Positions 2,827 to 54,395 of a DNA stretch of 64,000 nucleotides are shown here, piece by piece. Positions within the stretch are counted from its first letter, which is position 1. Each line of letters starts with the position of its first letter. This DNA is from Bacteroidales bacterium. Its GTDB lineage: Bacteria; Bacteroidota; Bacteroidia; Bacteroidales; P3. The translations under genes and the position numbers were made by a program. Under the pieces are notes generated by a model that did not search any database, had not been told where the DNA came from, and worked only from the letters and a program-made list of their open reading frames with translations. The stretch covers positions 1-64,000 of the forward strand of contig JAFZXE010000005.1 of assembly GCA_017616895.1 (NCBI GenBank), written 5' to 3'.

Positions 2827-3443
2827 GGAAGATTAACAAGCAGGTCCCACCAGAGGATTTGGCCAGATATGTGAGGAGGGAGAACCCTCAGAAATTTGAA
2901 GAAATCCATCACACCTCTCACTATCCCGAACTGTATGGAGAGTGCGTTGAGTATCTGAAGACCGAGCAGGACAACCTAAGCGGCTACACCGAGAAACCAT
3001 TGAGAAACGGAGTCCATATTGACCACTATCGAAAACAGGCTTTGTTCAACACACAGGATATGGTGTTTGGCTGGGAGAACCTGATAGCTGACGAGCACAA
3101 CTCCAGCTATGGCGCTGATTACAAAGACAGGCTTGTGACGATGAGGGAAGAGTATGCCAAGCTGATCAATCCGGTGTTGGACGACCCTCACCACTACCTC
3201 ACCTATATGGACGAGGGAATCATCAAGCCCGTTGACGGATTGGCTGAGCAAGATCGGGAAAAGGCCGAAAAGACCATCGAAGTGTTCAATCTGCGTCATC
3301 CCCTGCTGAAAGAGCTCCGTGAACGGGCCATCAGGATGGTGAAGGACTACAAGGTTCAAGGCCTCACCGATGCCGAGATACTCGAGGCTCTCCACGACTT
3401 CGGCTTCACCAGCGCCGTAGAGTACGCCCTGCAAGGCAACTGA
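2823..3443 (+). CDS. HNH nuclease of PtuB/TIGR02646 type
   Basis: The 206-residue protein has an HNH core: HIDH at residues 65-68, WENL at 84-87 and HNSSYGADYKD from 92. This matches the effector family TIGR02646 (PtuB) found in Septu and retron systems. Many relatives have a zinc-binding CxYCE segment just before the HNH core. Here the equivalent segment reads SGYTE (residues 53-57), so both cysteines are absent and the protein belongs to the cysteine-free subgroup or has lost zinc binding. It starts within the stop of the ATPase gene (ATGA overlap). The likely role is DNA cleavage once the ATPase partner is triggered by phage. Confidence 0.72.
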   Translation: MRKINKQVPPEDLARYVRRENPQKFEEIHHTSHYPELYGECVEYLKTEQDNLSGYTEKPLRNGVHIDHYRKQALFNTQDMVFGWENLIADEHNSSYGADYKDRLVTMREEYAKLINPVLDDPHHYLTYMDEGIIKPVDGLAEQDREKAEKTIEVFNLRHPLLKELRERAIRMVKDYKVQGLTDAEILEALHDFGFTSAVEYALQGN

Positions 3444-5035: not shown

Positions 5036-7300
5036 ATGAGTGATATAGTAGCAAATTATCAGAAAATAATTGAGATAATGACAGAGTCTCAGTTTAGAGA
5101 CTTTGTCCTTCTCTATCATAAGGAGTATTATGCTCCTTGTGAAGTTACTATTGTTGATGGACCTTATGATGGAGGTCAAGATATCGAGATTCGTAAGCAG
5201 CATCGTGTGTTAAAATGTCAAATACAGGTTACTGTTCAAGAAAAGAATATTGAGACAAAGATAATGAGTGATGTTAGAAAGGCTTTTCTCAATTGTGAAC
5301 AATACGATCATCTCGATACGCTATATTTCTTTGTTAACCATCCAATTTCTAACTCTGTGCAAATGCGTATTCGTAAGCAGGCTCAGGCTGAAGGGATTAA
5401 TCTACAAATACAAGATTCCAAGTTTATGGCAGAAAGATCATCAGAGTATTCTTCTCTGAGGGATTTTTTGTCTAACATACTTGATGTGTCCTTACCCAAA
5501 TCTGATACAATCGATTCTAAGGTTCAAATTGTATATGAAGCGGTTTCGCAACAGAGTGGTATAAAAGCTATAAAAGAGGAACTAATAAAGACTTTCTTTC
5601 TAAAAGTTCTTTATGATAAAGGTGAGGCGACAGTGGCTGAAATATCAGCAGAGTTGGATGACGTGTTTATGAATGTCGTAAAACACCATTATTATGAAAC
5701 GTTGGCTGGTAAATTGAATGGTGTATATATTGAACAGATTCCTGACACTAAACCTAAAAGGTACACATTATTGCCAGAAGCAAAGGAATATGTAACTTCA
5801 GTTTATCTATCCGAAAAAACAAAAATACTAGAGTTACGTAACAGATATGAAACTGTTAGTAAAGAAAACGGAGTTTCTATTTCATTTGATAATATTTACC
5901 CATACATTGAACAACTTTATGATGACAACTGTAATCCGGAAAATGGAATGTTTTCGGATGTCGTTGAAGAACATCTGAATCAGCTGACCAATTATGTGAA
6001 GGAAAATATCAATGTTACCTCTGGTGAAATTGACAAAATAACCACACAGCTTTTATCCGTCTTTGATATTAATGACTATACAGGTAAACAGAGTGCAACA
6101 AAAATGTTGATTAACCTTTTTAAGGACAATCAAATTGATGGCTATCTTGCACAGAAGAATCGTAGTTTGCTTTTTGACACACCAGTCTTGATTCAGTATT
6201 TATGCTATCTTTTTAAGGATTTGGAGGATTATAAGTATCAACCTTTCCAGAATGTGCGTACTCTGATAAAAACAATAGAGGATCCACGGCTAAATGTAAC
6301 AACATTTACATTAGAGGGCTATTTTAAAGAGATGGTGTCGCATTTGAGTAGTGCGATACTAATTGGACGCTATTTGGAAGTACCAGAGATACGAGAACTT
6401 GGAAAATCAAAAAACAGCTTTTATAATTTCTATATAGAGGTTTCCTCTCGCGAAGAGGTGGGTGGGATGGATGAATTCATAGAAAGTGTTCTTGATATAG
6501 ATGAACTCCCGGATTCTCGAAATAAACTCGAGAGCATTCTAGAACAAAAGTTGCGTGAACAGCTTGAAATACTCGGATTGAGAGAAGAAAGAAGATATGA
6601 AATAGAAAACTGGCAGGAATATAAAAAAGAGTATGACTATGCGTTGTTAAATACAAGTGGAGAACGTAAATCTAATACCGCTCGGATTAATGATTTAAAT
6701 GCAATAATATATCTTTCATACGTCCCCTTTGATAGCGACTATTATCTAGTTACATGGGATGCAACTTTTGATAAGGCACGTACAGAATTGAAGATCAGAC
6801 ATTCAGATATGAGTGATTGGTATCTATACTCACCGCAGCAGTTATCAGGAACATTCTCGTTGTTAAACTTTAAAATCAATCCCACATTCATCACAAGTAA
6901 TATACTGTCGCTTATTGATGGCAGTCTTGCTTCTAATTTAGATGCAAAAAGTTTTGTGGATACCGTAATAGAGTTTCTGCAGGGTTCTTCTGATTCAAAG
7001 ATGAAAGTGGCTAAAAATCTTGCAAAATTGCGTAAATCATTATATAGGGCAGAAGTAACAGGATATGAGGCTGAGGATGAGAAACCTATAGATGACTTGC
7101 TGACTGATATATTAGACTATACAATAAAAGATGAGCAAAAATATGAATTATTTGTTCAGATAATGCAATCCGAGGAATGTATAAAAGGCATTGCTGACAT
7201 ATTAGAGAAAAACCTTGTGCTTTGGGAACAGGGCAATTATAACAAAGATACTTTGAATAAAGGTGTCGAAGATTATTTGAATGGTTTTGAACGTACGTAA
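5036..7300 (+). CDS. Large protein with PD-(D/E)XK-like N-terminus and PIN-like C-terminal region
   Basis: This 754-residue protein has no family name I can give. The first 150 residues look like an Mrr-type restriction nuclease fold: a DGGQDIEI strand at 45-52 followed by a strand with alternating glutamines (residues 62-69), where the usual E/Q-x-K is degenerate. A winged-helix-like middle follows. From about residue 378 there is a pattern seen in PIN-domain RNases: LLFDTPVLIQYL, then a glutamate near 427 in TLEGYFKE, then VTWDATFDKA near 575. The two could make a protein that senses or cuts nucleic acid. It has no membrane segment. The gene is AT-rich and stands in a defence-like neighbourhood. 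Domain calls come from pattern inspection by eye. Confidence 0.5.
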   Translation: MSDIVANYQKIIEIMTESQFRDFVLLYHKEYYAPCEVTIVDGPYDGGQDIEIRKQHRVLKCQIQVTVQEKNIETKIMSDVRKAFLNCEQYDHLDTLYFFVNHPISNSVQMRIRKQAQAEGINLQIQDSKFMAERSSEYSSLRDFLSNILDVSLPKSDTIDSKVQIVYEAVSQQSGIKAIKEELIKTFFLKVLYDKGEATVAEISAELDDVFMNVVKHHYYETLAGKLNGVYIEQIPDTKPKRYTLLPEAKEYVTSVYLSEKTKILELRNRYETVSKENGVSISFDNIYPYIEQLYDDNCNPENGMFSDVVEEHLNQLTNYVKENINVTSGEIDKITTQLLSVFDINDYTGKQSATKMLINLFKDNQIDGYLAQKNRSLLFDTPVLIQYLCYLFKDLEDYKYQPFQNVRTLIKTIEDPRLNVTTFTLEGYFKEMVSHLSSAILIGRYLEVPEIRELGKSKNSFYNFYIEVSSREEVGGMDEFIESVLDIDELPDSRNKLESILEQKLREQLEILGLREERRYEIENWQEYKKEYDYALLNTSGERKSNTARINDLNAIIYLSYVPFDSDYYLVTWDATFDKARTELKIRHSDMSDWYLYSPQQLSGTFSLLNFKINPTFITSNILSLIDGSLASNLDAKSFVDTVIEFLQGSSDSKMKVAKNLAKLRKSLYRAEVTGYEAEDEKPIDDLLTDILDYTIKDEQKYELFVQIMQSEECIKGIADILEKNLVLWEQGNYNKDTLNKGVEDYLNGFERT

Positions 7301-7841
7301 TAATTAAGGGTATTTATTTGAGACTTCGAGCCGACAGGTCTTTACACGCAGCCTGTGGCTCAATAGATGACGGCAGGCATCCCGTGGTCCTCCGCACAGT
7401 TACGGGTTCTGTCTGATAGCCGCAGACAAGATAGTACAGAAGGGGAAAAATCACATCTTCCATCTTAACAATCTTCTGCGAAACTGATTGGATTTCACGA
7501 ACAAACAATATGAATTTATAGATGTTAATCACATCATTAATCTATAACCAATGGTTCCCTATTGCGTAGTCGGTGGTAACTGAATGTGCTAGGAGGATTA
7601 TTCCATACAAACTAACAGTTTCTCTTTAAAGAATACTATTATTAATATTCAATAATGCGCTATCGTGTGAATCATGTGGCAGTGAGGCGTGGTTGGAGCG
7701 GGAATTTGAAGGCATTGTACGAGTTGGGTGGATATGGCAAAGTATAGAACCAACGAATATAATTCGATTTATTGTGACAAATGAGAAACAGTGATTTGTG
7801 AAATTGTTATTTAATTAATCTTTTTTATCATTTATTACATC
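7301..7841. other. Spacer before polysaccharide operon, no clear gene
   Basis: These 541 bases separate the nuclease-like gene from the polysaccharide operon. There is a 30-codon open frame at 7654-7746 starting MRYRVNHVAV, with no recognised homology, which could be a remnant. I found no TAnnTTTG promoter close to 7842. The last 60 bases are very AT-rich and probably carry the operon's leader. Confidence 0.5.
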
Positions 7842-8882
7842 ATGAAATACAAACTTCTTTCTGTTGGGAAAGATAAAGAATTACCCCCATCGATCAATAT
7901 AGGTGATTATGTACAGGCATTGGCGGCATCTCAGTTTTTACCAACAATAGATGGTTTTATAGATAGGGATAACGATTTAAAATCATATGATGGTGATGAG
8001 TGTAAAGTAATAATGAATGGATGGTACATGCATAAACCGCAAAATTGGCCTCCTTCATCAAAAATCATACCTTTATTTGTCGCGTTCCATATAAACTCAG
8101 CATATAAAGAATTCTTCAAAAAAAAGAGCAGTATAGACTATTTAAAGCAATATGAGCCTATTGGATGTCGTGATCCGTACACTCTAGAGTTCTTAAAATC
8201 GCAAAATGTAAAAGCTTATTTTTCTGCTTGTTTAACATTAACGCTTGGGGAAAAATACACTTCAATAGAAAAGGGTGAGAATATATATTTTGTTGACCCT
8301 TATGTTTATTATTGCATTTCATTATCAGAAATAGTCAATACTCTTTTTTCTTATATTTTCAACTTTAGATGTATTAATAGTTTGGCAAAAAAATTCGTTC
8401 CATATAAAATGGAAAAGAACCTGATTCGCAGGATATATGGTGTATCATGTTTCTACAGACAATACAGCAAGGTGTTTCCCAAAAATATTCTATTGAATGC
8501 AAGATACATATCTCATATAAGTAAAGAATATAGAGAAAGATGTCCTACTGAACGTGAATTGCTTAAAGAAGCAGAACGTTTAATTATAAATTATTCTAAA
8601 GCTAAACTTGTCATTACATCTAGAATTCATTGCGCATTGCCATGTTTAGGCATTGGTACTAATGTTATATTTGTAAAAGATGCTAATTTAGATGAAAGCA
8701 ATGCCTCTAGATTAAATGGTTTGACATCATTCTTTAATATTTTAGACTCGAGAAAAGGTATTCTGAGTTATAATAATAAGAAGGTAAATTATGAAACAAT
8801 CTTAAATCTTCATAACGACAACAGTTGGGAGAAATATTCGGATGATTTAAAAAGGAGATGCTCAGAATTTGTTAATTCCTAA
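7842..8882 (+). CDS. Polysaccharide pyruvyl transferase family protein
   Basis: The 346-residue protein fits family PF04230, enzymes that add pyruvate ketals to sugar residues using phosphoenolpyruvate, or related transferases of the CsaB/WcaK type. Visible marks are NIGDY at residues 19-23, IGCRDPYT around 106-113, SACLTLTL around 129-136 and a C-terminal SRIHCALPCLG near 259-269. It has no signal peptide, so it should act at the cytoplasmic face of the membrane on lipid-linked glycan intermediates. It is the first gene of a long co-directional operon for surface polysaccharide synthesis. The exact acceptor sugar cannot be told. Confidence 0.8.
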   Translation: MKYKLLSVGKDKELPPSINIGDYVQALAASQFLPTIDGFIDRDNDLKSYDGDECKVIMNGWYMHKPQNWPPSSKIIPLFVAFHINSAYKEFFKKKSSIDYLKQYEPIGCRDPYTLEFLKSQNVKAYFSACLTLTLGEKYTSIEKGENIYFVDPYVYYCISLSEIVNTLFSYIFNFRCINSLAKKFVPYKMEKNLIRRIYGVSCFYRQYSKVFPKNILLNARYISHISKEYRERCPTERELLKEAERLIINYSKAKLVITSRIHCALPCLGIGTNVIFVKDANLDESNASRLNGLTSFFNILDSRKGILSYNNKKVNYETILNLHNDNSWEKYSDDLKRRCSEFVNS

Positions 8883-8923
8883 AGTGTATATAAAGTGTTG
8901 CGATCATTTCGGGGAGGTTGGAT

Positions 8924-10342
8924 ATGGAGTCAAGATACAAACGATTAGGAAAAAATTCAATAATAGTTTTTTTGGGCAATGCCGGTAGTAAGATTATTGG
9001 CATATTGATGTTGCCATTTTATACTCATTATTTATCCACTTCTGGATATGGAACGTATGATATTGTAAATACATATTCGGCGGTTTTGCTTCCTTTTGTG
9101 ACCTGTTGTATAGCTGATAGCATATTTATTTTCCCTAAGGATAAAAGTATATTAGATAAAACAAGATATTTCACATCTGGACTTATTTTTTGCTCATTTA
9201 CTTTAGCTATTGTTCTTTTTTTATCATATCTTATAAGCATTGCGTTTCCTTGTAGTTTTATTGGCAGATATGTTTGGTGGATTGTCGGTTTGACATTTTC
9301 AACATTTATATTGAATTATGTACAACAATTTACAAGAAGTATAGACAAAATGATAGTCTATAGTCTTACTGGGATAGTGCATGTTTTGGCAATAGCTCTT
9401 CTATCACTGGTTTTACTACCGACTTACAAGTTAAATGGATATCTTTTAGCCTTGATTATTTCCTCTCTAATTTCTGCCGTTTTTGCTCTTTTATTTTCCA
9501 AGTCTCTTAAATATTTTAGACTAAAAGAATACAACAAGAGGCATCTAATTGAATTGTTACGATATGGTGTGCCACTTATACCAAATACAGTTATGTGGTG
9601 GCTTGTGGATGGAATTAATCGTCCGATAATGATGAGTGAAATAGGAACAGACGCAATAGGTATATATGCGATAGCGAATAAGATGCCAGGTTTTATATCT
9701 ATGTTATTCGTTGTTTTTTCTAACGCTTGGGGCATATCAATGCTTGAGGAATATGGAAAAAAAGACTTTAATTTGTTCTTCAATAGGACAATGAAAAATC
9801 TTGTTTTCGTAATTGCCATAGGATCTTCATTATTGATAACTTGTAGCAAATTAATGGTTTCTATTTTGGCATCTTCTGAATTCAACTCTGCATGGAAATA
9901 TGTTCCAATTCTCATTGTGGGTGTAATGTTTCAATATATTTCAACTCTTGTTGGTGGTGTGTTCATGGCAGAACGTAAAAGCAAGTATTTCTTTTATTCA
10001 AGCGTTCTGGGAGCGACTGTTTCTGTTTTGATGACATTTGCTTTAATCAAGGTTTGTGCTCTCTATGGCGTTTGTATTGCAGTTACACTTTCTTTTATGT
10101 GCATGGCAATAGTTCGTATAAAGTATGCATGGAAAAGTATTAACCTATTTGATATTCGATATTATGTTTTTACATTTTTTGTTTTAATACTACAAGCTTG
10201 CATATATATATTCAATTGGGGGGTATTGGTTGATATTGTAACGATGGTGGTGTCCATTACACTTATAGTTATGCTTAATAGAAAAGAACTATCTGCAGTA
10301 ATGTTACTATTAAAAAGAATAATAAAAAAAGATGAATTATGA
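8924..10342 (+). CDS. wzx: Oligosaccharide flippase (Wzx/MATE-like)
   Basis: This is a very hydrophobic protein of about 472 residues with roughly 12-14 predicted membrane helices, starting with a short basic N-terminus and the typical block where IGILMLPFYTHYLS precedes a GYG turn. This is the signature layout of polysaccharide exporters of the MVF/MOP superfamily, which flip undecaprenyl-linked repeat units across the inner membrane. The ATG at 8924 is preceded by a purine-rich GGGGAGG at 8911-8917, a better start than the in-frame TTG at 8918. The next gene begins within its stop (ATGA, 10339-10342). Strongly AT-rich. Confidence 0.85.
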   Translation: MESRYKRLGKNSIIVFLGNAGSKIIGILMLPFYTHYLSTSGYGTYDIVNTYSAVLLPFVTCCIADSIFIFPKDKSILDKTRYFTSGLIFCSFTLAIVLFLSYLISIAFPCSFIGRYVWWIVGLTFSTFILNYVQQFTRSIDKMIVYSLTGIVHVLAIALLSLVLLPTYKLNGYLLALIISSLISAVFALLFSKSLKYFRLKEYNKRHLIELLRYGVPLIPNTVMWWLVDGINRPIMMSEIGTDAIGIYAIANKMPGFISMLFVVFSNAWGISMLEEYGKKDFNLFFNRTMKNLVFVIAIGSSLLITCSKLMVSILASSEFNSAWKYVPILIVGVMFQYISTLVGGVFMAERKSKYFFYSSVLGATVSVLMTFALIKVCALYGVCIAVTLSFMCMAIVRIKYAWKSINLFDIRYYVFTFFVLILQACIYIFNWGVLVDIVTMVVSITLIVMLNRKELSAVMLLLKRIIKKDEL

Positions 10343-11454
10343 AAATAATTGAACTAATCCCAAGCTTGGACTTTGGAGGTGCTGAAAGATTTGTTGCTGA
10401 TATATGCAATTCTTTTGTATCCAAAGGGAATCACGTTGTTCTTATCACTTTTTGTAATGCCAAAGGCAAAGATTCTTTTTATCCCGTATTATCAGATAAA
10501 GTAGAATTGAAATGTTTGGGTAACATGACAAAAGTCAAATTATTATATCCATTTTTTATATTATACTACATTCTCAAAGAAAGGCCAACGGTAGTTCATT
10601 CACATCTGAATAGTGTCATGTATTTATTTTTTTCTTTGTTTTTATCAAAAAAAATCAAATTTGTGCACACCGTTCATAATGATGCCTATAAAGAGGCTGG
10701 AGGCTATTGGGGACGCGTGTATAGGAAATTTACCATGGGGCGTTTCATCCTCCCTGTAACGATATCCAAAGAATCTCAAAAATCTTTTTACTCAATGTAT
10801 AATAGGTCTTCTTGTCTTATCTATAATGGAAGATCCTTGGATGAATCGGATAAAGCGGTTGAAAAACAAATATTTGATGAAATACTAAGATTAAAAGACA
10901 ATCCGGACTCATTTGTTATTGTTAATTTGGCCAGATTTGCAGAACAAAAAAACCAATTAAGTCTTGTAAAGGCAGTAAACAGGATTAATGAAAAAAAACA
11001 AATTATTGATTTGTATATCATAGGTAGTTATAGCCATTCTAAGGAGGCGATTGACATTTACAATAATATATCTAGGATAAGAACCAGTAATATTCATTTA
11101 CTTGGAGCTAAAAATAATGCATCAATTTACTTGAATTTTGCAGATGCATTTTGTCTCAGTTCGATTTTTGAAGGTATGCCTATTTCGATAATTGAAAGTT
11201 TTTCAAAAGGATGCCCTGTTTTATCTACACCTGTTGGTGGTGTTGTCGACATGGTAGAGGATGGCGTTAATGGACTTTTATCTAAAGATACAAATATTGA
11301 AAGTATCGTGGATATGCTGGATAGATTTTGTGGTATGAGCTCAGGTGAAAGAGCAAGGTTAAGTGAAAATGCAAAAGAATCCTATGCTTTGTATTCAATG
11401 GATACTTGTACATCTGCATATTTATCATGCTTTTATAACAATACACAATATTAA
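10339..11454 (+). CDS. Glycosyltransferase family 4 protein
   Basis: A GT-B fold glycosyltransferase of 371 residues. The N-terminal SLDFGGAERFV motif (residues 9-19) and the C-terminal EGMPISIIESFSKGCPV block (about 277-293), which holds the EX7E nucleotide-sugar site, are typical of GT4. It would add one sugar of the repeat unit at the cytoplasmic membrane face. The start overlaps the flippase stop by four bases, showing tight operon coupling. The donor sugar is not predictable. Confidence 0.82.
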   Translation: MKIIELIPSLDFGGAERFVADICNSFVSKGNHVVLITFCNAKGKDSFYPVLSDKVELKCLGNMTKVKLLYPFFILYYILKERPTVVHSHLNSVMYLFFSLFLSKKIKFVHTVHNDAYKEAGGYWGRVYRKFTMGRFILPVTISKESQKSFYSMYNRSSCLIYNGRSLDESDKAVEKQIFDEILRLKDNPDSFVIVNLARFAEQKNQLSLVKAVNRINEKKQIIDLYIIGSYSHSKEAIDIYNNISRIRTSNIHLLGAKNNASIYLNFADAFCLSSIFEGMPISIIESFSKGCPVLSTPVGGVVDMVEDGVNGLLSKDTNIESIVDMLDRFCGMSSGERARLSENAKESYALYSMDTCTSAYLSCFYNNTQY

Positions 11455-11473
11455 TTAAAAACATTAATTTGAA

Positions 11474-12232
11474 ATGATCAGACCAATTATAATTGCTGGT
11501 CCTTGCGTCATTGAATCGCAGGAATGCTTAAATGAAGTTGCAGAAGAACTTGTTCGTCTGAACAAGAAATACGGCTTGGACATTATTTTCAAGTCATCCT
11601 TTGATAAGGCAAACCGTACATCTATCAGTTCATATCGTGGTCCGGGTATGGAAAAAGGACTGACGATGTTAAACGATATACGTGAGAAGTATGGTCTAAA
11701 ACTTCTGACGGATATACATGAATCATATCAGGCAGCACCAGTAGGGGAGGTGGTTGACGTACTCCAGATACCTGCATTCCTTTGCCGTCAGACAGATCTA
11801 TTGGTGGCAGCTGCCAAGACAGGAAAGGTGGTGAACATAAAGAAAGCTCAGTTCTTGAGTGGTATGGATATGGAGTTTCCAGTGCAAAAAGTACGGGAAG
11901 GTGGTAATAATAATGTATGGCTCACAGAGAGAGGGAATATGTATGGCTACAATAACCTTGCAGTAGACTTCCGTAATATTGCTGATATGAAGAAGTTTTC
12001 AGATACTGTTATTATGGATTGCACCCACTCTGTGCAGAGACCCGGTGCTGCAGGTGGCAAAACGGGTGGCAACCGTGAGTTTGTGCCTGCAATGGCTCTT
12101 GCGGCAAAAGCCTTTGGAGCAACTGGGTATTTCTTTGAGGTACACCCCAATCCAGAGAATGCAAAAAGCGATGGACCGAACATGCTTTATCTAAAAGATT
12201 TTGAAAGTGTTGTGAAATCCCTACTTGACTGA
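11474..12232 (+). CDS. kdsA: 3-deoxy-8-phosphooctulonate synthase (Kdo-8-P synthase)
   Basis: The 252-residue protein condenses arabinose-5-phosphate with PEP to give Kdo-8-phosphate. Diagnostic blocks are AGPCVIES at residues 8-15, KSSFDKANRTS around 40-50, LTERGNMYGYNNLAVDFRN around 150-168, and DCTHSVQ followed by a GG-rich segment. The cysteine in AGPC (residue 11) marks the metal-dependent class, whereas the E. coli type has asparagine there. It heads a kdsA-kdsC-kdsD-cytidylyltransferase set inside the polysaccharide operon, so this copy probably supplies Kdo or a related acid for the exported glycan rather than only for lipid A. Confidence 0.93.
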   Translation: MIRPIIIAGPCVIESQECLNEVAEELVRLNKKYGLDIIFKSSFDKANRTSISSYRGPGMEKGLTMLNDIREKYGLKLLTDIHESYQAAPVGEVVDVLQIPAFLCRQTDLLVAAAKTGKVVNIKKAQFLSGMDMEFPVQKVREGGNNNVWLTERGNMYGYNNLAVDFRNIADMKKFSDTVIMDCTHSVQRPGAAGGKTGGNREFVPAMALAAKAFGATGYFFEVHPNPENAKSDGPNMLYLKDFESVVKSLLD

Positions 12233-22175: not shown

Positions 22176-22405
22176 ATGACGCAAGATGAAAGATGGATGG
22201 TATGGAATAATGAGGTGAACGACTTCATTGAAAGAGAGCATAGGAATCCATCGAAGCACTGCATAGAGGAGCATCTGATGCTAAACTTCATTAAGCACAA
22301 TCGCAAGCTGTTTAATGCGGAAAAATGAAAGCAGGTAGAGTTGGAAAGTTTAATGAACTGATGAGGTTGGTAGAGAAGTATAGGAGGAAGAATCAGTATG
22401 AATAA
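22176..22405 (+). pseudogene. Split small helicase-associated-like protein (frameshift or ATGA-coupled pair)
   Basis: Two short frames overlap by four bases: 22176-22328 (50 residues, with FIEREHRNPSKHCIEEHLML) and 22325-22405 (26 residues, ending VEKYRRKNQYE). Together they reconstruct a protein of about 76 residues of a kind common in Bacteroidales near mobile and defence genes. It has a tryptophan, then an FI...R.PSK...E segment as in helicase-associated repeats, and an RKNQY-type tail. The break after NAEK is best explained by a frameshift. A coupled two-part gene is less likely. The identification is by remembered pattern. Confidence 0.5.
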
Positions 22406-22415
22406 TTAAAACACT

Positions 22416-24542
22416 ATGCTAAAACTTATTGCGATTCAAAACATCAAGCCCGGTAAAAAGGAGATACAAAATCCGAGACGGTATAATAATATCTGTAAGA
22501 TATTACAACCCGACTCGACCTATTTCCTATATAAGGGATATTCTATTGCAAAAGGGAAAATTACCAAAAGACCCAAACCAGTGTTGGGGGGCCATCTATA
22601 TTCTGATACGACTCCAAACATAGACATTTGTGCAATAGTTGGTAGGAATGGTAGCGGAAAGAGTTCGATAATAGAGCTTTATTTGCGTTTGATGAATAAT
22701 CTTGCTTATGTTTGCCATCCGGCAATTAATAATGGAAGATTATTCAATACCCAATTTGTGTGTGATGTCTTTGCAGTTGCTTATTTTGACGATACGGAAA
22801 CTGGTAGATGTCATATTGTGAAACAGTGTGGTGCAATCATTGAGTATATGATTGATGGTGAGGTCATTTTCAGGCATGATTATAATAAACCTTTAAAGGA
22901 ACCAGGAATGCCATTGGATGAGTTCCCTTCCTCTGATTTGGCTAGGGAATGCTTGAGTTCTTTGTGCTATACAATGGTAATTAATTATTCAGCCTATTCT
23001 TACAACAATGAAGACTATTTGCCTGAATGGAATACGGAGTTTAATAACAGCACTAAAGACGAGAGGACTGAAGCTGAACGTATGGAGGATAGATGCTGGA
23101 TAGATTCCCTTTTTCATAAGAATGATGGTTATCAACTACCGATAGTTCTTAATCCATTCAGAGAAAATGGTATGGTTGATTATAACAACGAACGAGAGTT
23201 AACTCAAGAACGGCTGTATGGTATGTCGTTGTTGTCGGAATCACCTTTGGATTTAATATTGGATGGTTTGGTGGTTGACTCTTTTGTATTTGACGTTGAT
23301 GATGACCTAAATCCAGTAGGTAAAACGACGTATGCATCTTATAAGGTACTTTCGGAAATGTTCATCTTGCGTGCTAATAGTAAAATGAGTGGCAGCCAAA
23401 CAGAACATAAGGCAGACGAGGTGGGTAAACAAATTGTTGGAACATGGAGTAAGTGTTTTGGTGTTGATTTGGAGGCTTGTATCGTTGATGAGATATTTGA
23501 TGATGGTAATAAGCGAAATTCCAATGTGTTACAGGCTGTTAATTATATTGTGTATAAAACATTAAAAATAGCTCATACATACCCCAATTATCAATATTAC
23601 AGTAATATAGGGCAAAATCTGCATAAAATCGAGAAATTCGTAAAAGAGTTATATCAAGATAATAGCCATATCACACTTAAGATTAGAAGAAGCATAGCTT
23701 TTATCATATTTCGACATTATAAAAACGGGGAGTACTCTGTTAATAAGTTTAGGAAGTCATTATCGCGAACCTTACATAATCGAAAGTCAAAATGTGCGAA
23801 GGCAAAAAAACAATACCCAGTGGAACGCTTTGCAGATTTGCCAGAGTATGAGTGGATGGATAATGATTTTATGCCTGCACCTTCGTTTAAGGTCAATATG
23901 TACCTTAAGGACACAAAAACAGGTGGTTCCCTTATAAGTTTATCGGCAATGAGTTCGGGCGAGCGCCAAATTATTAATTCGTTGTCAACAATGGCATATC
24001 ATCTTTCGAATATTGATTCGGTTTGGGATAGAGTCTCTGATGTTTCCAATGAGATAACTTATAAAAATATTTGTGTGTTTTTTGACGAGATGGATTTATA
24101 TCTACATCCTGAGTTTCAGACAAGGATGATTGATGTAATGATTAAGATTGTTCAAGGACTTCATCTGAAACATATAAAAGGAATTCAAGTGATTTGTGCC
24201 ACCCACTCTCCATTTATACTCTCGGATATTTTAAGAAACAATGTTTTGTATTTGCAAAAAGGAAGTGAATACAAGTCAGATAAAAAAATACGCACATTTG
24301 CAGCTAATATAGGGGATTTGCTGTGTGACTCATTCTTTATGAAAGAAGGGTTGATAGGTTGCTTCGCCAGGGACAATGTGGAATCTCTTGTGGACTGGCT
24401 GGAAGATGAAGGAGATAATGCAAAATGGGATGTTAGGACGGCAGATGATTTTGTTGATATAGTAGATGACCCATTAGTTAGAATGCAATTAAAGATGATG
24501 TTGATGGAATACAAGAAGGAAAAGGAACTTGCAAATGCGTAA
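22416..24542 (+). CDS. Large AAA ATPase (PtuA-like/AAA_15) of a defence-like operon
   Basis: A 708-residue ATPase with Walker A GRNGSGKSS at residues 76-84, preceded by an unusual 70-residue N-terminal part; an AMSSGERQ signature near 510-517; Walker B VFFDEMDLYLHPE near 552-564; and ATHSPF near 595. The several hundred residues between A and B contain the SMC-like arms. It is larger than the ATPase at 1570 and clearly a different subgroup. Its 3' end overlaps the HNH gene by eight bases. It probably senses phage or foreign DNA and controls the adjacent nuclease. Confidence 0.75.
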   Translation: MLKLIAIQNIKPGKKEIQNPRRYNNICKILQPDSTYFLYKGYSIAKGKITKRPKPVLGGHLYSDTTPNIDICAIVGRNGSGKSSIIELYLRLMNNLAYVCHPAINNGRLFNTQFVCDVFAVAYFDDTETGRCHIVKQCGAIIEYMIDGEVIFRHDYNKPLKEPGMPLDEFPSSDLARECLSSLCYTMVINYSAYSYNNEDYLPEWNTEFNNSTKDERTEAERMEDRCWIDSLFHKNDGYQLPIVLNPFRENGMVDYNNERELTQERLYGMSLLSESPLDLILDGLVVDSFVFDVDDDLNPVGKTTYASYKVLSEMFILRANSKMSGSQTEHKADEVGKQIVGTWSKCFGVDLEACIVDEIFDDGNKRNSNVLQAVNYIVYKTLKIAHTYPNYQYYSNIGQNLHKIEKFVKELYQDNSHITLKIRRSIAFIIFRHYKNGEYSVNKFRKSLSRTLHNRKSKCAKAKKQYPVERFADLPEYEWMDNDFMPAPSFKVNMYLKDTKTGGSLISLSAMSSGERQIINSLSTMAYHLSNIDSVWDRVSDVSNEITYKNICVFFDEMDLYLHPEFQTRMIDVMIKIVQGLHLKHIKGIQVICATHSPFILSDILRNNVLYLQKGSEYKSDKKIRTFAANIGDLLCDSFFMKEGLIGCFARDNVESLVDWLEDEGDNAKWDVRTADDFVDIVDDPLVRMQLKMMLMEYKKEKELANA

Positions 24543-25557
24543 AATAAGGATTGATGCTGATGTTGAAAGTATAGCCGACGAGTTTCAGCTGGAGCTGGAT
24601 AAACATAAAACAGAAATATTGCAGGCTATAAGAGAACTTAAGGAAAAGTTTGACGGCAGTCATTCTTTGACCAGAAAAGGCACGGCCATGGATGCGGCTG
24701 AAGTGAAGAAGTGCTATGATTACATAGACCAATTAGAAAATGACTATGATAACGGCTCGCTGACACTAATGAAACCAAATGATTTCGAGAAGACCCATCA
24801 GACATATAAAGGTTATTTGAAAGACCAGGAACTAAAATGGAGTATCAGCATAGATCGCGATAAGGCAACACCGTTGCATAGACGCCTGACGGGAGCGATG
24901 GGATATCAGACAATAGTAAGAGATGAAATCTATCCACCGCTGATGAGGAAAATGGGCATCAAGGCCTGCGTGTATTGCAATGCCAACTATACGGTTTCGG
25001 CAGAAAAAGGTAGCGGGAAAGGCTATTTTGAGTTGGATCATTGGAAACCTGAATCGAAGTATCCGTTTCTATGTACATCGTTCTACAATTTGCAACCATG
25101 TTGCCCTCATTGCAATAAACGCAAAAGTGCAAGTGACAAATATGAGTTCTTGAAATTGTACGAAGAAGATCAGAATGTACCGCTTGACGTTTTTGAGTTC
25201 CAGATAACAAAGGGTAGTATTGTTCGGTATTTTAATAAATTGGATACCAGTCATATTAAGGTGTCATTCAAGGCAACTGATGCCAGTGTGAAAAAACTAA
25301 GGAATGACGCAGAACAGAAGTTCGGAATTGAGGGTATATATAACGAGCATATCGATGTGATTGAAGAAATGTTGTGGCGGGCTAAATTCTATGATAATGT
25401 TATAGTAGGATCGATGACATGGTTATATGGTAAACGCAATTCAATAGTGGATGTTGCGCGTTTCAAACTTGGAACTTATGCCGAAGAGGACGAAATTCAT
25501 AAACGTCCGTTGACGAAGATGATGCAGGATTTAGGAAAACAATTGGGGATTATTTAA
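24535..25557 (+). CDS. HNH endonuclease with zinc-binding cysteines
   Basis: The 340-residue protein has a helical N-terminal third and a central HNH domain: CVYC at 145-148, FELDHW at 166-171 (His169), CPHCNK at 190-195. The cysteine pairs form the zinc site that is missing from the HNH protein at 2823. A helical C-terminal part of about 140 residues follows. The ATG at 24535 lies inside the ATPase gene, and a TTG at 24529 is also in frame. It should be the DNA-cutting effector of the ATPase/HNH pair. The next gene starts 31 bases later. Confidence 0.8.
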   Translation: MRKIRIDADVESIADEFQLELDKHKTEILQAIRELKEKFDGSHSLTRKGTAMDAAEVKKCYDYIDQLENDYDNGSLTLMKPNDFEKTHQTYKGYLKDQELKWSISIDRDKATPLHRRLTGAMGYQTIVRDEIYPPLMRKMGIKACVYCNANYTVSAEKGSGKGYFELDHWKPESKYPFLCTSFYNLQPCCPHCNKRKSASDKYEFLKLYEEDQNVPLDVFEFQITKGSIVRYFNKLDTSHIKVSFKATDASVKKLRNDAEQKFGIEGIYNEHIDVIEEMLWRAKFYDNVIVGSMTWLYGKRNSIVDVARFKLGTYAEEDEIHKRPLTKMMQDLGKQLGII

Positions 25558-25588
25558 TTCAATATTTTGATTAAGATTTTTTTCGAAT

Positions 25589-27505
25589 ATGAAAGAATAC
25601 AAAATAATCAGTGTCGAATCCAGAAAAGGTGGTGTGGGTAAGACTACTGCAGCGTTGAATATCGGCTATCTTTTGAAAAAAAGATACCATGTTCTTTTGC
25701 TGGACATTGACATTACTGGTACAAGTATCAGAGCCATTCAGGAGTCTAGATTTTGGATGAATGATACTCGCCTTCTGACTGAGGAAGGGGACCAACCCAT
25801 CAATCTGTTACAATATTTTACTAATTCGTATTTAAAGGGGGAGGATTTGTTTTCTTTTACATCCAAACAAGAGGCTGGGAAAGTATGCGTTTATGATGAC
25901 GAGATCAATGTAATAGCTTCTGAACTATATGGCGATGATGCTGCGTTGCTTTACGACCCCTCATTACTATTGGATAATCTTCATGTTTACTGGCTTACAA
26001 AACTTATCACATCTATCTGCGAAGGATTTGCTGGCTGCTTTAAAGACCGAAAACCGAGTGTTATTATCCTCGATAATTCACCAGGGTTTGTTGGGATTGG
26101 AAAGGCCGTGCATGATATAATGACAGATATGGGGCCGGAAAGGGCTAAATTTATTACGGTATCGTCACTTGACATACAAGATTTCGAATCGAGTTTGAAA
26201 TCGGTGTGTGCTTTGCATCAGCAATATACGGATAAGTATTATGGCGCAAGGTATCCAGAGACTCAAAAAGGTGATGAGAAGTTTTACGCACAGGTGCAAT
26301 TGTCAGGAACTACCAAATATGTTTACTATCGTACACATACGAGAGAATCTTATTTGAAGTCATATCAGGGGCTGATAATTAATAAAGTTGCCAAGGGTAT
26401 TGTGGAAGGCCGTACTAGGTATGATTTTAAGAAGAAACTGACTCCAAAGCTTGAAGAAATATATGAGGGTTTGTACGAAGACAAAATCAAAGATTATCTG
26501 GTTCCTTTCGACAATGTGTTGTTAACCCAGTTTTACGGTGTTTTTGAGGAGAAGTTGGGAGTGCAAAATGAAAATCTGTCAACATTAAAGAAACGTTTGG
26601 CAACCATTGAATGGCAGATTAAGATGTTGGATGAATTGGATGCCAAAGTATTGCCTTACGATTTATTGCGTCGTGCAGATGGTTTTGACAAAACTATTGA
26701 TACATTAAAAGGTGCCCTGATTGCCAGTGGCTATGATGTGATTGCCTCAAAATTCAATCCTGATTGGTCGCCAGTGGAACCATTGCGAAAGATGATTGCT
26801 GTCTTGAAAGACATTGGCTTTACTTCAGAAAGCTTCGAATTATATGTTCCGAGAAGAAACCGTATGGAGCGTGAAATGGGTTATTTTCACGGAATAGCAT
26901 CAAAGGCCGTAACCTATGCGGGTGAGCAGCAACAGGAGCTAGTGTGGCTCGCTTCTGCCGTTGCCTCGGTTGCTTGTGAATTGAGTTTCTGTTACTCGAA
27001 TAAGATATTGTGGAACAACAATCGAGCATGGAGCAGCGACGAGACTTGGGGCGCCAGTAAGGAAAAATGGGCAAATATGGTAAACGATGCTTTAACTGAC
27101 TGGATGTTGGGGATTGCTGACGGCTATTCTAATCATAGAAGTGAGAGACCGGCATTGGCCGCTTATGTGTTGAGCGACGATGCATCAGTTTACGACAAGT
27201 ACTTAGGTGAGTTATTTGACAGGGCGGAGTTTTTCTCAACCTTGAAGTCGTTTGTAAGTAGATTGATGGATTTAGGATCAGATATGCAGACATTGGTAAA
27301 CTTGATTCGTGCAATAACAGTCAACAATGAAGGAAGCTACACTGTGGATGTTGATTTCGTACCATTTCTCAATCGTAAAATAATCGAAAAAAAATATGAC
27401 TATTCACTGGCTAATGATGTGATGTATAGTGAATTGCGTGATTCTGACTATATGGCTGCCTTTAAGGAGGTTATTGATAGAGTTATTCACAATTGGGGAT
27501 TATAG
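25589..27505 (+). CDS. ParA/MinD-like ATPase with long C-terminal extension
   Basis: The 638-residue protein begins with a deviant Walker A RKGGVGKTTAALN (Lys13 and Lys18), then LLLDIDITGTS (Walker A') and VIILDNSPG (Walker B) near 150-158. The ParA/MinD core is about 270 residues; the remaining 370 are helical and unlike chromosome-partitioning ParA proteins. There is no ParB gene beside it. It lies between an HNH nuclease gene and an HD-domain gene with 31- and 3-base gaps, so it is part of the same transcription unit. A dimerising switch ATPase that positions or regulates the effectors is a plausible but unproven role. Confidence 0.75.
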   Translation: MKEYKIISVESRKGGVGKTTAALNIGYLLKKRYHVLLLDIDITGTSIRAIQESRFWMNDTRLLTEEGDQPINLLQYFTNSYLKGEDLFSFTSKQEAGKVCVYDDEINVIASELYGDDAALLYDPSLLLDNLHVYWLTKLITSICEGFAGCFKDRKPSVIILDNSPGFVGIGKAVHDIMTDMGPERAKFITVSSLDIQDFESSLKSVCALHQQYTDKYYGARYPETQKGDEKFYAQVQLSGTTKYVYYRTHTRESYLKSYQGLIINKVAKGIVEGRTRYDFKKKLTPKLEEIYEGLYEDKIKDYLVPFDNVLLTQFYGVFEEKLGVQNENLSTLKKRLATIEWQIKMLDELDAKVLPYDLLRRADGFDKTIDTLKGALIASGYDVIASKFNPDWSPVEPLRKMIAVLKDIGFTSESFELYVPRRNRMEREMGYFHGIASKAVTYAGEQQQELVWLASAVASVACELSFCYSNKILWNNNRAWSSDETWGASKEKWANMVNDALTDWMLGIADGYSNHRSERPALAAYVLSDDASVYDKYLGELFDRAEFFSTLKSFVSRLMDLGSDMQTLVNLIRAITVNNEGSYTVDVDFVPFLNRKIIEKKYDYSLANDVMYSELRDSDYMAAFKEVIDRVIHNWGL

Positions 27506-27508
27506 CAA

Positions 27509-28678
27509 ATGAAAATGAAATTCTCTTATGATGATTTCCGGGAGAACTATCTTCATAGCGATGCTTTGATGCCTCTATCGCCACTCAAGCCATTGGAAAT
27601 AATTGATATGGGCAAGTATGACAAGGCTTTGGATGATTGGGGGATTGAGCGGCGTATCAGAAAAACCTTCGATGAGCTGGAAAGGAGATTAGGCTCCAAG
27701 TATTTCTCAGAATTCGAACGCGTTCAAACAAAAGTTAAGGAGTATGGCTCGTTCATGTTCCCTTTATATAAAATACTCTTCCTAGATATTGCGTGCGAAG
27801 ACTGGTTGTCGTTAGTTGATTTTCACAAAGGGTTTAGTCGAGACCATTCGGTACACCAACCTTTGACAGCGTATATTGTATGCAAGCTATTGGGTGGTGG
27901 AGATATCGCGGAATCGTTTCAAATACAAGATGCTTCCTTATTAGACAAGGCGCTTGATGTTATAATTGATGGGCAGGGCACCAAATATCTTCGAGACAGG
28001 CTTGCTTTTTATGATTCTTCATCAAAGCTTCTGTCTGGAGATAGGAATGCATGGAAAGCTGTTTTTTATCAAACTGCAATAATCACAGCCATGTATCATG
28101 ACTTGGGTTATCCATGGCAGTTCATCGACAGGATGCACGATTTTTTAAAAGATGATATTTTGCTTTGTGGGCGTTTGCCAAAAGGTAGCTCTGCAATACA
28201 TTCATACATTACTGCGCACAACGAAGAGTTGATGTTTCGCCCTTTCTATAATTATGGGGAAAGCGGCGCTTCAACTGATGATATAAAAGAAGATCTGTTT
28301 GAGCATATTCTACATAATTCACATGGGTTACCGGGTGCACTTGCTTATCATGCCTATAATAACGAGTACTGTTCAAAAACCCCAACTGACTCTTTTGGGC
28401 TCATCAAATTCTGTCAGGAGTGGAGTTGCCTCGCAATTTTGATGCATGATATGCAAAAAGCACACGCTACAAAGGATTCGAGTTTTCCACGACTTGATTT
28501 CAATACAGACCCGCTGTCGTACATTATTGCACTGGCAGATACTTTGGAAGATTTCAATCGGCCAAGTGCCAGTATCGACAAAACAGAGACGGGATGTGAG
28601 ATAAAATATACCTTTCCTTCGTTATCTGTTGAATTAAGGTGTATGTACAGCAGGACGTATTTGAGAATAAGGCGGTAG
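27509..28678 (+). CDS. HD-domain phosphohydrolase-like protein, probably 3'-truncated
   Basis: The 389-residue protein has a spaced HD set: DHSVH at 112-116, YHDLGYP at 196-202, NSHG at 270-273, MHDM at 312-315 and ALADTLEDF at 341-349. This fits metal-dependent HD phosphohydrolases or nucleotidases. It follows the ParA-like gene by three bases. The last dozen residues (from CMYSRTYL) are encoded in DNA that, in another frame, encodes the middle of an AlbA_2 domain. The native C-terminus therefore appears to have been replaced at about 28636. Nucleotide or nucleic-acid hydrolysis in defence is a contextual inference. Confidence 0.68.
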   Translation: MKMKFSYDDFRENYLHSDALMPLSPLKPLEIIDMGKYDKALDDWGIERRIRKTFDELERRLGSKYFSEFERVQTKVKEYGSFMFPLYKILFLDIACEDWLSLVDFHKGFSRDHSVHQPLTAYIVCKLLGGGDIAESFQIQDASLLDKALDVIIDGQGTKYLRDRLAFYDSSSKLLSGDRNAWKAVFYQTAIITAMYHDLGYPWQFIDRMHDFLKDDILLCGRLPKGSSAIHSYITAHNEELMFRPFYNYGESGASTDDIKEDLFEHILHNSHGLPGALAYHAYNNEYCSKTPTDSFGLIKFCQEWSCLAILMHDMQKAHATKDSSFPRLDFNTDPLSYIIALADTLEDFNRPSASIDKTETGCEIKYTFPSLSVELRCMYSRTYLRIRR

Positions 28679-29766
28679 TTCTTATTACCATTCCTAAAGG
28701 CAGTTTGACGCCATACACATATCGGGCTCGCTATTATGTGTTACAAGGCGAAGAACCGGCTGTGGCAACGAATGATTATCTGGCACGTCTGCTACGGGAT
28801 TCATCGGCCATGCAGTCGGCTTGGGAGCGGGTAAATAATCTATATGCCAATGAAGAGGATTTGGACGAAAGGTTAATGTCTGATGTATATGACAAAGGCC
28901 TTTCGTTAGGACGTTTGTCAAAATCTTCTAATGGGCTAAGAGGACTATTATCTGAGCTTCATTTATTGCGGACTTCTGAGATGGCAAATGGTACTGTGGC
29001 TCTTTTTGCTCGTGAAACAAAGGGCTTGTTGCCTCAATGCCGGTTGAGGATTCAGTTGATGTCGCGTGGCAAGATTGCAGACCAATATGATGACCTGTAT
29101 TTCATTGAGGGGAATATTTTCAATGTTCAAAAGGAGGCGATAAGCTACTTCAAAGAACGTCTTCCCAGGGTGGCTTATTTCTTTAAAGACAGGGCAGGAC
29201 GTTACAATGATTTCGAGTACCCGATAGATGTTCTGGATGAAGCTATTTCAAATGCATTGATTCATAGGGACTATGAGGATATCTCGGATGAAGTGACTGT
29301 GTTTATCTATACTGATAGGATAGAGATTACAAATTCAGGTGTTTTGCCGGATAATCTTGTTTCCGGTAAGAGTAGGGTTTTGCCTCATGGTTCCGTGTTG
29401 AGGAACCCGTTGATGGCTGAGATATTCTATGTGGCCGGTGAGATGGAAAAGACAGGTCGCGGAATGTATCTTATCTCTAATACGATGAAAGAGGCGGGAC
29501 GGAAACTTCCGGAATGGTTGTCTGCCAACGGGAAGACGACCTTGATGATTTATAGCAAAAAGGAAGAATTAACCATTAATGAACGAATCCGTTATTTCCT
29601 GTCTTGTTGGGAAACGGGTAAGGAGTTTACCAGGACGGACTATATGGACTCGTTTGAGAAGAAACCTTCAAAGGGAACGGTCCAAAATGATTTACTTCTA
29701 ATGCTCAAGCTGGGCCTGACTGAGAAGTCTGGAGCTGGTCCTTCTACAAAGTATAGGATCAAATAA
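28639..29766 (+). pseudogene. RecG/Schlafen-AlbA-type ATP-binding protein, N-terminally truncated
   Basis: The open frame gives 375 residues that start in the last part of an AlbA_2 domain (VLITIPKGS, then YYVLQGEEP). They continue through the RecG-like ATP-binding region, with DEAISNALIHRDY near residues 202-214 and EKTGRGMYLI near 274-283, and end in a winged-helix tail. Family members normally have about 120 more N-terminal residues, including the start of AlbA_2. Those are missing here, and the frame is fused at about 28636 to the end of the HD gene. It may still be translated from an internal start (GTG or ATG near 28637-28642). I call it a remnant left by a deletion or recombination. 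Confidence 0.65.
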
Positions 29767-31590: not shown

Positions 31591-31753
31591 GATGATTGTG
31601 TTTTGGTGAATAAAAAAGGTTAGTCGTTTTGGAGATATATCTTCACTTATGTAATGGCCCTGCGAAATGTTAAATTGGTCAAAGCCCCTGTTAAAAGATG
31701 TTAAGATTGCGAAAAAAAGCGCTTTTGGCGCCATGCCAAACGTTAATAACCAC

Positions 31754-31860
31754 GACTTAACCATGACTTAACTATGACTTAACTATGACTTAACCACAAC
31801 TTAACCATGACTTAACTATGACTTAACCACAACTTAACAACGACTTAACTACGACTTAAC
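31754..31860. repeat. 11-bp tandem minisatellite (GACTTAACCAT)
   Basis: Nearly ten consecutive 11-bp units of GACTTAAC(C/T)A(T/C) lie upstream of the DUF6266-like gene, with only point differences and no indels. The unit differs from the 7-bp families but shares its period with the repeats at 38883-38984. Confidence 0.9.
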
Positions 31861-32202
31861 CCCCAAAACAACCGTAAACCGTAAGCCAGCAACCCGCTGC
31901 CCCTGTTTTTTTTGTTTTTTGTTTTTGTTATCGTTATTATCCTCTTGCCCTGAGACCCTAGACTCTTGACCCTAGACGATTGACCCTGGACTCTTGACCC
32001 TAGACTCTTGCCCCTAGACTCTAGCCCCAAGCCCTAAGGCGTGCCTCACCGCTATCTCGAACACCAAAGACTGTAAGCCATAAATGATAGCCGGAAAAAC
32101 TGTAAACCTTATCACTCGAAAATCTAACTTTTTAGCTGTTCCCTAAAAAAGTAGTAATTTTGTACCTCGTAATTCATCATTCGCAACAAGTAATATCTTG
32201 AT
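31861..32202. repeat. Repeat-bearing spacer with promoter for the aminotransferase gene
   Basis: The spacer contains a 14-bp (2 x 7) tandem family of the form GACCCTAGACTCTT at about 31952-32030 and scattered GTAAACC units. The last 60 bases carry a Bacteroidota-type promoter: TAATTTTG at 32155-32162, 40 bases before the ATG at 32203. No gene is seen. Confidence 0.7.
32155..32162 (+). promoter_or_regulatory. Bacteroidota -7 promoter element (TAATTTTG)
   Basis: It matches TAnnTTTG and lies 40 bases upstream of the aminotransferase ATG. A T-rich stretch about 20 bases further upstream could be the -33 element. Confidence 0.6.
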
Positions 32203-33770: not shown

Positions 33771-34492
33771 AAAAAAAGTGGGGCAGGTAACAACCACCAG
33801 TCCCACGCATTTTTTATATAGTATCCCACAAATATCAACCCAAGCTCCCCAACCATCCCAACAACTCCGACCATCCCAATCCGCCAAACAAAAAAACATA
33901 TTAGCCTTTTTTCGTGATTTTCGAGTCTTTCGATGTGAAAAATAAAAAGAGTTTTCGCCCCCCTTTCGTCCTTTTCGCAAGATTTCGCAATCAAAAAAAC
34001 TTTCGTGTCTTTCGATGTTAAAAAAAGAAAAGTTTTCGCATCCTTTCGCAATTTTCGTCCTTTTTTGCAATCAAAAAAAACGTATTTTTCGGTGATATAA
34101 AAACAGAAGAAACAGCGAAGCGCATTTCATTTTCGCAAATTTCGCAAAAGCAATAAACCAGCCCCCCCCCAAAAAAAATCTTTTCGTGAATTTTCGAGTT
34201 TTTCGATGTTATAAAAAAACGCAAAGCAACAAGTGAAAAATCTTTTCGTGTCTTTCGTGTCTTTCGTGTCTTTCGATGTTAAAAAAAAAAATTCGCACCC
34301 TTTCGTCATTTACGCACCTTTTCGCAATCAAAAAAACGTATTTTTCGGTGATATAAAAACAGAAGAAACAGCGAAGCGCATTTCATTTTCGCAAATTTCG
34401 CAAAAGCAAGTAAAAATCTTTTCGTGAATTTTCGAGTTTTTCGATGTTTAAGAAAAAAAGTGTCTTTCGATGTTACCCCCCAAAAGAGCGCC
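33771..34492. repeat. TTTCG-rich repeat block with two long duplicated copies
   Basis: No convincing gene is present. The block is built of TTTCGTGTC and TTTCGATGTT motifs, including a tandem run at about 34242-34278. A segment of 86-87 bp at 34067-34153 recurs at 34324-34409, apparently differing only in an A-run. Each copy is followed within 25 bases by the same 30-bp TTTTCGTGAATTTTCGAG motif. Homopolymers C9 and A8 lie at about 34162-34178. Confidence 0.85.
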
Positions 34493-54098: not shown

Positions 54099-54106
54099 TA
54101 TCTTTG
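54099..54106 (+). promoter_or_regulatory. Bacteroidota promoter for riboswitch transcript (TATCTTTG)
   Basis: TATCTTTG matches TAnnTTTG, with a TTG at 54078-54080 separated by 18 bases as the -33 element. It lies just before the cobalamin riboswitch. Confidence 0.75.
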
Positions 54107-54167
54107 CACTCGGTTTGGTTGCCGATAGGAGAGGGGAGAGATCTGGGAAACGACACATCCATAGCTC

Positions 54168-54330
54168 TTTAGGCATCAAAAGGGAAGTACGGTGAAAGTC
54201 CGTCGCAGTCCCGCTGCTGTAAGTTCATCACACACATCCGCAGTCCGTTTCGTGGTCACTATGCGTCGCCATAGGCGTATGGGAAGGCCGAGACAGCGGA
54301 GAACGAGCCAGAAGACCTGCCAAACCATAT
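54168..54330 (+). promoter_or_regulatory. Cobalamin riboswitch
   Basis: Conserved elements appear in order: AGGGAAGTAC at 54181, GGTGAAAGTCCGTC at 54191-54204, GTCCCGCTGCTGT at 54208-54220, a variable arm, GGGAAGGCCGAGACAGCGGA at 54281-54300, and the B12-box end GCCAGAAGACCTGCC at 54307-54321. This is the adenosylcobalamin/B12 aptamer that normally represses cobalamin uptake or synthesis genes when cobalamin is plentiful. Boundaries are estimated from the conserved cores. Confidence 0.93.
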
Positions 54331-54395
54331 TTTGAATCGGCTACGCTTTCGAGGAAAAAGCAAGTCAGTGTTCCTTTGTGGACGTCAGTTGACTG

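Follow-up and report, generated by a model that had tools for sequence, protein, structure and literature searches.

A rare four-gene operon in Bacteroidales sets a ParA-type ATPase and an HD-like protein behind a Septu-like ATPase-HNH pair: a candidate defence system

Results

Four genes and their relatives

The DNA studied here, a 64,000-nucleotide stretch from a rumen-type gut bacterium of the Bacteroidales (the window; assembly GCA_017616895.1, contig JAFZXE010000005.1, positions 1 to 64,000 of the forward strand), carries an operon of four open reading frames (ORFs) on the + strand between 22416 and 28678. Gene 1 (22416..24542) encodes a 708-residue, PtuA-like ATPase of the ABC/SMC type in the PDC-M62A branch. 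Gene 2 starts at 24529 (TTG, 342 residues) or 24535 (ATG, 340 residues) and ends at 25557; read from the ATG (24535..25557), it encodes a PDC-M62B/PtuB-like HNH nuclease with two CxxC pairs. Gene 3 (25589..27505) encodes a 638-residue ParA-like protein with a P-loop domain over approximately residues 1-250 and then a C-terminal extension of about 390 residues that belongs to no known family. Gene 4 (27509..28678) is truncated at its 3' end and encodes an HD-like protein of 389 residues, of which 376 are shared with a second copy of the operon in genome RUG134 (below) and the last 13 are not. Genes 1 and 2 overlap by 8 bases, counted from the ATG at 24535, and the following gaps are 31 and 3 bases. 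Promoter and terminator scans gave no signal above shuffled sequence.

Genes 1 and 2 resemble the Septu defence pair PtuA-PtuB. The ATPase matched Pfam AAA_15 (E 2.8e-17) and AAA_21 (6.4e-14) with intact GRNGSGKS, SSGERQ, FFDEMD and THSP motifs, and the HNH protein matched Pfam HNH (1.1e-5) with intact CVYC, LDH and CPHCN motifs, residues C147, C150, D170, H171, N187, C195 and N196 being invariant across 15 aligned sequences. The best PADLOC profiles were PDC-M62A for the ATPase (4.6e-47, residues 68-701) and PDC-M62B for the HNH protein (3.4e-40, residues 23-340), and the two matching genes adjoin, as in a PDC-M62 system, to which genes 3 and 4 are additional here. Weaker PADLOC matches were to AriA, PtuA (1e-15) and PtuB (3.8e-10), and the combination of a PtuA-type ABC ATPase with an adjoining PtuB-type HNH protein bearing catalytic and zinc residues is that of Septu. 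Scores against the curated NCBIfam PtuA and PtuB models, which represent the retron Ec78 form, fell below the cut-offs (43.7 versus 500 bits and 21 versus 150 bits), and a PDB sequence search with the HNH protein returned nothing worth the name. A structure model of the ATPase built with 16 sequences (predicted local distance difference test, pLDDT, 72.6) gave its highest Z score with retron PtuA (14.7 over 262 residues, 3.9 A), followed by Septu PtuA (14.2-14.5), AriA (14.2) and the heads of Rad50 and SMC (12.6-13.7); retron PtuAB complexes were named among the matches. A Bacillus cereus group survey reports that PDC-M62 was the candidate in 203 of the 244 cases in which a Septu call was duplicated by a candidate call (PMC11811056), and a study of Escherichia coli Septu describes Walker and HNH residues as essential and tRNA-Tyr as cleaved in its variable loop (PMC13096335). 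Because of the likeness to PDC-M62, PtuA and PtuB and of these E. coli data, genes 1 and 2 most likely encode an infection-triggered, ATP-gated nuclease.

The pair nevertheless differs from canonical Septu, an example of which lies 19 kb upstream in the same window (1570-3443): its PtuA (418 residues) and PtuB (206 residues) match their profiles at 1.6e-117 and 3.6e-55, versus 1e-15 and 4e-10 for the pair of the operon, whose ATPase has 708 residues and which is followed by two extra genes. Compared with the PtuAB of type I-A retrons (Ec78/Eco7, Ec83), ParA-like and HD-like genes stand here in place of a reverse transcriptase. We rejected a type I-A retron, since no reverse transcriptase was found among 17 Pfam-scanned window proteins, including the operon and its near neighbours, and no Rfam retron RNA reached the gathering threshold in the window. 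In the PARIS system, AriA is partnered by AriB, a TOPRIM protein, whereas the partner of the ATPase here is an HNH protein.

Gene 3 matched Pfam CbiA/ParA (4.2e-9, 36.9 bits versus a cut-off of 25.4) and shares with ParA/MinD ATPases a deviant Walker A motif of the form KGGxGK[ST] (KGGVGKTT at residue 13) and further intact motifs (LDIDITG, ILDNSPG). It differs from them in its extension and in standing without a ParB-type partner gene; no Pfam match to ParB was found among the operon proteins and scanned neighbours, and a ParABS partition system was rejected on this ground. Searched at full length, gene 3 matched in 133 of 247 genomes of an order sample, the window's own included; among the matches listed, the window gene aside, ParA matches extend to residue 107 at most and score at most 26 bits, and such partial matches were not counted as relatives. 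The extension itself had no relative outside this operon in the collections searched. Neither the extension nor the HD-like protein had a relative in the order sample, where one 57-residue match of 19.7 bits in an 83-residue frame was dropped as chance, or in a phylum sample of 395 genomes, where five matches of 14-17 bits were dropped likewise. PDC-M62 profiles did not match genes 3 and 4, and no other PADLOC profile did so below E 0.008.

For gene 4, searches of Pfam (up to E 10), PADLOC, NCBIfam, PHROGs and PDB returned nothing, and no HD profile recognised it; PF01966 finds six other places in the genome of the window but not gene 4. The residues of an HD metal motif are present (H113, H197-D198, D344), and a pattern written after inspection of gene 4 matched one of 999 background ORFs of at least 150 residues, namely gene 4 itself, and 9 of 20,000 shuffles. 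The same post hoc pattern recovered only 9 of 23 true HD proteins, a set from which 7 of 30 loci with frames shorter than 200 residues had been dropped. Alignment by hhalign to three sets of HD proteins, several members of which are cut fragments, gave probabilities below 1% and scores of 14.3, 22.9 and 20.3, compared with 13.7, 13.1 and 17.4 for reversed controls and 16.6-19.3 for unrelated profiles. In one case, also below 1%, the HDLG of gene 4 was aligned with the HD motif of the other side. HD activity is thus a guess from motif residues. A sequence-only reading of this DNA had proposed the same four ORFs with the same spacings, and the ORF coordinates agree with it; its labels for the AAA ATPase, HNH and ParA-like proteins and its Septu-type view of the pair are upheld by the profile matches and intact motifs, but its label of HD phosphohydrolase-like protein is not confirmed.

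A second copy and the history of the block

That reading had suggested looking for all four genes together in other genomes. We found them in the same order in RUG134 (treated here as one with family genome G319; contig ONBB01000001.1), an uncultured Bacteroidales genome of the same genus, RUG standing for rumen. The RUG134 genes encode an ATPase of 708 residues, an HNH protein of 342, a ParA-like protein of 645 (638 from the ATG common to both copies) and an HD-like protein of 431, followed after 34 bases by a 327-residue DUF4238 protein (PF14022, 7.7e-39). Counted from common starts, the gene spacings are identical in the two copies. The shared block (window 22212..28637, + strand, equivalent to 5399-11824 of the RUG134 stretch L034; blastn, 89.6% identity) is set in different flanks, and both copies sit among polysaccharide genes, as judged from translations read by eye and, for some, Pfam.

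Elsewhere the two genomes are more distant: two ClpC stretches share 77% and 70% DNA identity (984 and 1132 bases), and two stretches of an aminotransferase gene share 72% and 74%. The block, at 89.6%, was therefore probably exchanged horizontally after the lineages split. In 200-base steps that run from the beginning of the ATPase gene to a point within the HD-like gene, block identity mostly lies at 80-94%, with the lowest value (77.6%) in the last, incomplete step, and rises to 95.5-99.5% in a tract inside the ATPase gene (22740-24139). This tract looks like a later exchange within that gene, which would account for the low synonymous divergence (dS) of the ATPase gene (0.155, versus 0.43, 0.77 and 0.61 for the other three genes in order); outside it, divergence is at a similar level throughout the four genes. 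Ratios of nonsynonymous to synonymous divergence (dN/dS, Nei-Gojobori) were 0.129 for the ATPase, 0.155 for the HNH, 0.056 for the ParA-like and, over 376 codons, 0.106 for the HD-like gene, and 0.049 for the ParA extension alone, indicating that selection has kept all four genes between the two copies.

The HD-like protein was found in 2 of 190 family genomes, those of the window and of G319, and a search with the last 388 residues of the ParA-like protein hit these two and no others; in both, the genes stand behind the ATPase-HNH pair. When 84,980 species genomes were scanned, one locus emerged, the RUG134 copy. The sequence-only reading had named two outcomes that would speak against it, ParA-like and HD genes occurring mostly without the pair and a chance junction unique to this genome, and we saw neither: both family genomes and the wider scan have the pair in place, and the second copy lies in other flanks. 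Because order and spacing are kept, the genes moved together and dN/dS is low in all four, these sequence comparisons indicate that the genes form an inherited, selected unit and not a chance junction, within the limit of two copies in one genus.

A ParA P-loop in a block that has moved horizontally could instead mark genes 3 and 4 as mobile-element remains, serving partition or maintenance and unrelated to defence. We regard this as very improbable, given that no ParB match occurs among the block proteins, that neither the ParA extension nor the HD-like protein matched anything in 72,556 plasmid records or 50,697 phage records (or in IMG/VR), and that the extension, much larger than those of partition ParAs, is under selection.

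The damaged right end of the window copy

The block shared with RUG134 stops abruptly at 28637, inside gene 4. Beyond this point the RUG134 protein continues for 55 residues and the window protein for 13 others, the first three of which, RCM, are the last three of the RUG134 HD-like protein. An HATPase_c_4 gene outside the operon (28639..29766, + strand; Pfam HATPase_c_4, 3.8e-16) marks the junction and is truncated at its 5' end: compared with a 456-residue homologue (L164, 53% identity), its ORF aligns from its first residue to residues 82-455, the initial 81 residues being absent. A single break, due to a deletion or an assembly join, thus truncates both gene 4 and the HATPase_c_4 gene. A join with no real deletion behind it seems rather unlikely to us, although the draft genome that holds the window has 31 contigs and 88% completeness and is probably metagenome-assembled, and two genes are cut at a single point; the contig measures 136 kb, and a join here would leave the operon itself, present in two assemblies, untouched. 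The function of gene 4 may be lost in the window copy, and the RUG134 copy is the better basis for judging this gene.

The pair elsewhere and the neighbouring defence genes

ATPase-HNH pairs of this kind occur more widely. A PDC-M62B search matched 28 of the 395 phylum genomes and an HNH search 11 of 119 genus genomes, the window's included in both. We examined 30 other neighbourhoods, 27 from genomes and 3 from plasmids: 20 of the 32 non-self places of the PDC-M62B search (33 rows, two being one gene), 7 of the 10 places of the genus search, the window and G319 left out, and 3 of 9 plasmid records, one of them reached through a Segatella copri match to the gene remnant at the left edge of the block. 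Four of these stretches were shorter than 10 kb. By tblastn, the ATPase was present in 28 and the HNH protein in 29, and none of the 30 held a relative of the ParA-like, HD-like or DUF4238 protein (E 0.01).

Many of these pairs stand alone. In L079 (1287-10148) and L068 (5318-18021), the two loci whose upstream genes were searched with profiles (Pfam covered L079, L105 and, for L104, two genes), the pair directly follows hsdR, hsdM and hsdS of a type I restriction system, so there is precedent for coupling the pair to other modules. Gene lengths at L075, L077, L078 and L080 are similar to these, which points to the same type I restriction arrangement in several families of the phylum. Ahead of a pair from the window's genus (L105, 1311-8470), and on its strand, lie a D12 adenine methylase gene and three genes without a Pfam match. 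The ATPase-HNH pair looks like a module joined to varied partners, here the ParA-like and HD-like proteins.

The left edge of the block falls inside a small, frameshifted remnant of a 'helicase associated domain' gene (22176..22405, + strand, read in two frames), the shared block beginning at 22212. The remnant recurs upstream of the RUG134 operon (80%; G319:C8:269398-269601) and ahead of a different ATPase-HNH pair in another genome (82%; G346:C7:73336-73563), and a similar Segatella copri gene is annotated as a 'helicase associated domain-containing protein'. When the whole block was compared as DNA with plasmids and phages, the sole match was this remnant, in Segatella copri. It possibly marks a common site at which defence genes insert or recombine. 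About 4 kb past the DUF4238 gene in RUG134 lies a CBASS-type pair of a SLATT_4 membrane protein and a SMODS nucleotide cyclase (L034 17143-18603), and another study credits a single DUF4238 protein with strong resistance against T7 (PMC9122126).

In such surroundings, the operon could comprise two separate systems side by side in one island, perhaps on one transcript: a Septu-like pair, and an unrelated ParA-extension and HD-like pair serving defence or something else. The 30 neighbourhoods without ParA or HD relatives favour this, as do the crowding of the locus with the canonical PtuA/PtuB pair, DUF4238 and CBASS-type genes and the position of the only larger gap, 31 bases, between the two halves. 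On the other side, the ParA-like and HD-like genes were not found without the pair in either of the two copies, the spacing is kept in both, and divergence and selection are alike across the four genes outside the exchanged tract. We consider two systems the main rival reading and a serious possibility, though one we would not wager on.

The window holds two different Septu-class pairs in one locus. Near the canonical pair lies a DUF3990 gene (193-870; PDC-M42A, 1.1e-43), and at 5036-7300 a 754-residue protein that at E 0.001 matches neither PADLOC nor Pfam. Other features of the window are an 11-base tandem array (31736-31867), an AT-rich repeat cluster (33901-34488) in which 80 bases are duplicated exactly (34074-34153, 34330-34409), and a cobalamin riboswitch (54099-54338, 91.5 bits).

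Discussion

Our preferred reading, which we hold with belief and doubt in equal measure, is that the four genes are a horizontally moving defence unit acting in one pathway. A role in defence is suggested by the Septu relatives of the pair and by the defence genes of the setting. The ABC-type ATPase would hold the HNH nuclease until an infection trigger leads to cutting of nucleic acid, after which the infected cell would no longer make phage. Genes 3 and 4, inherited along with the pair and peculiar to this operon, would form an arm that most likely sets when the effector fires, with the ParA-type ATPase as an ATP switch, its C-terminal extension as the part that contacts a partner or senses, and the HD-like protein as an enzyme or partner of the switch. 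Government of the effector by the ParA-like protein and gene 4 is proposed because of the biology of ParA proteins and because retrons offer a precedent, PtuAB being held there by an additional component. The DUF4238 gene behind the RUG134 copy is perhaps also part of such a system.

Several observations weigh against one pathway. The operon is known from two copies in one genus, and relatives of genes 3 and 4 are missing from all 30 other neighbourhoods of the pair. The truncation of gene 4 in the window suggests that this gene is dispensable or that the copy is decaying; no profile backs it as an HD protein, and its structure model (pLDDT 35) is worthless. The ATPase model is nearly tied among PtuA, AriA and Rad50, and Foldseek puts AriA first, with TM-scores of only 0.19-0.27 across the whole model. 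Other defence genes lie nearby, so adjacency alone is weak evidence.

Neither such an operon nor nuclease immunity governed by a ParA protein was found described among the open-licence papers that our literature searches listed. We tentatively propose, on less than even confidence, that a Septu-like, ATP-gated nuclease under a ParA-type switch, with a new C-terminal domain and a new HD-like enzyme, constitutes an undescribed defence system. The ATPase-HNH pair is of a known type, and what is new here is the ParA/HD arm on a Septu-like effector; the operon would be more than a Septu-like variant if genes 3 and 4 gate the nuclease. The operon is rare, with two copies found in the collections searched, and its general importance is limited accordingly. 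Septu-type pairs are met by themselves, within retrons and downstream of type I restriction genes, which suggests an effector able to take on different partners. If our reading is correct, the ParA-wired pair would represent a new way to trigger a nuclease, ParA ATPases would gain a role in immunity, and two orphan proteins, the ParA extension and the HD-like protein, would gain a function.

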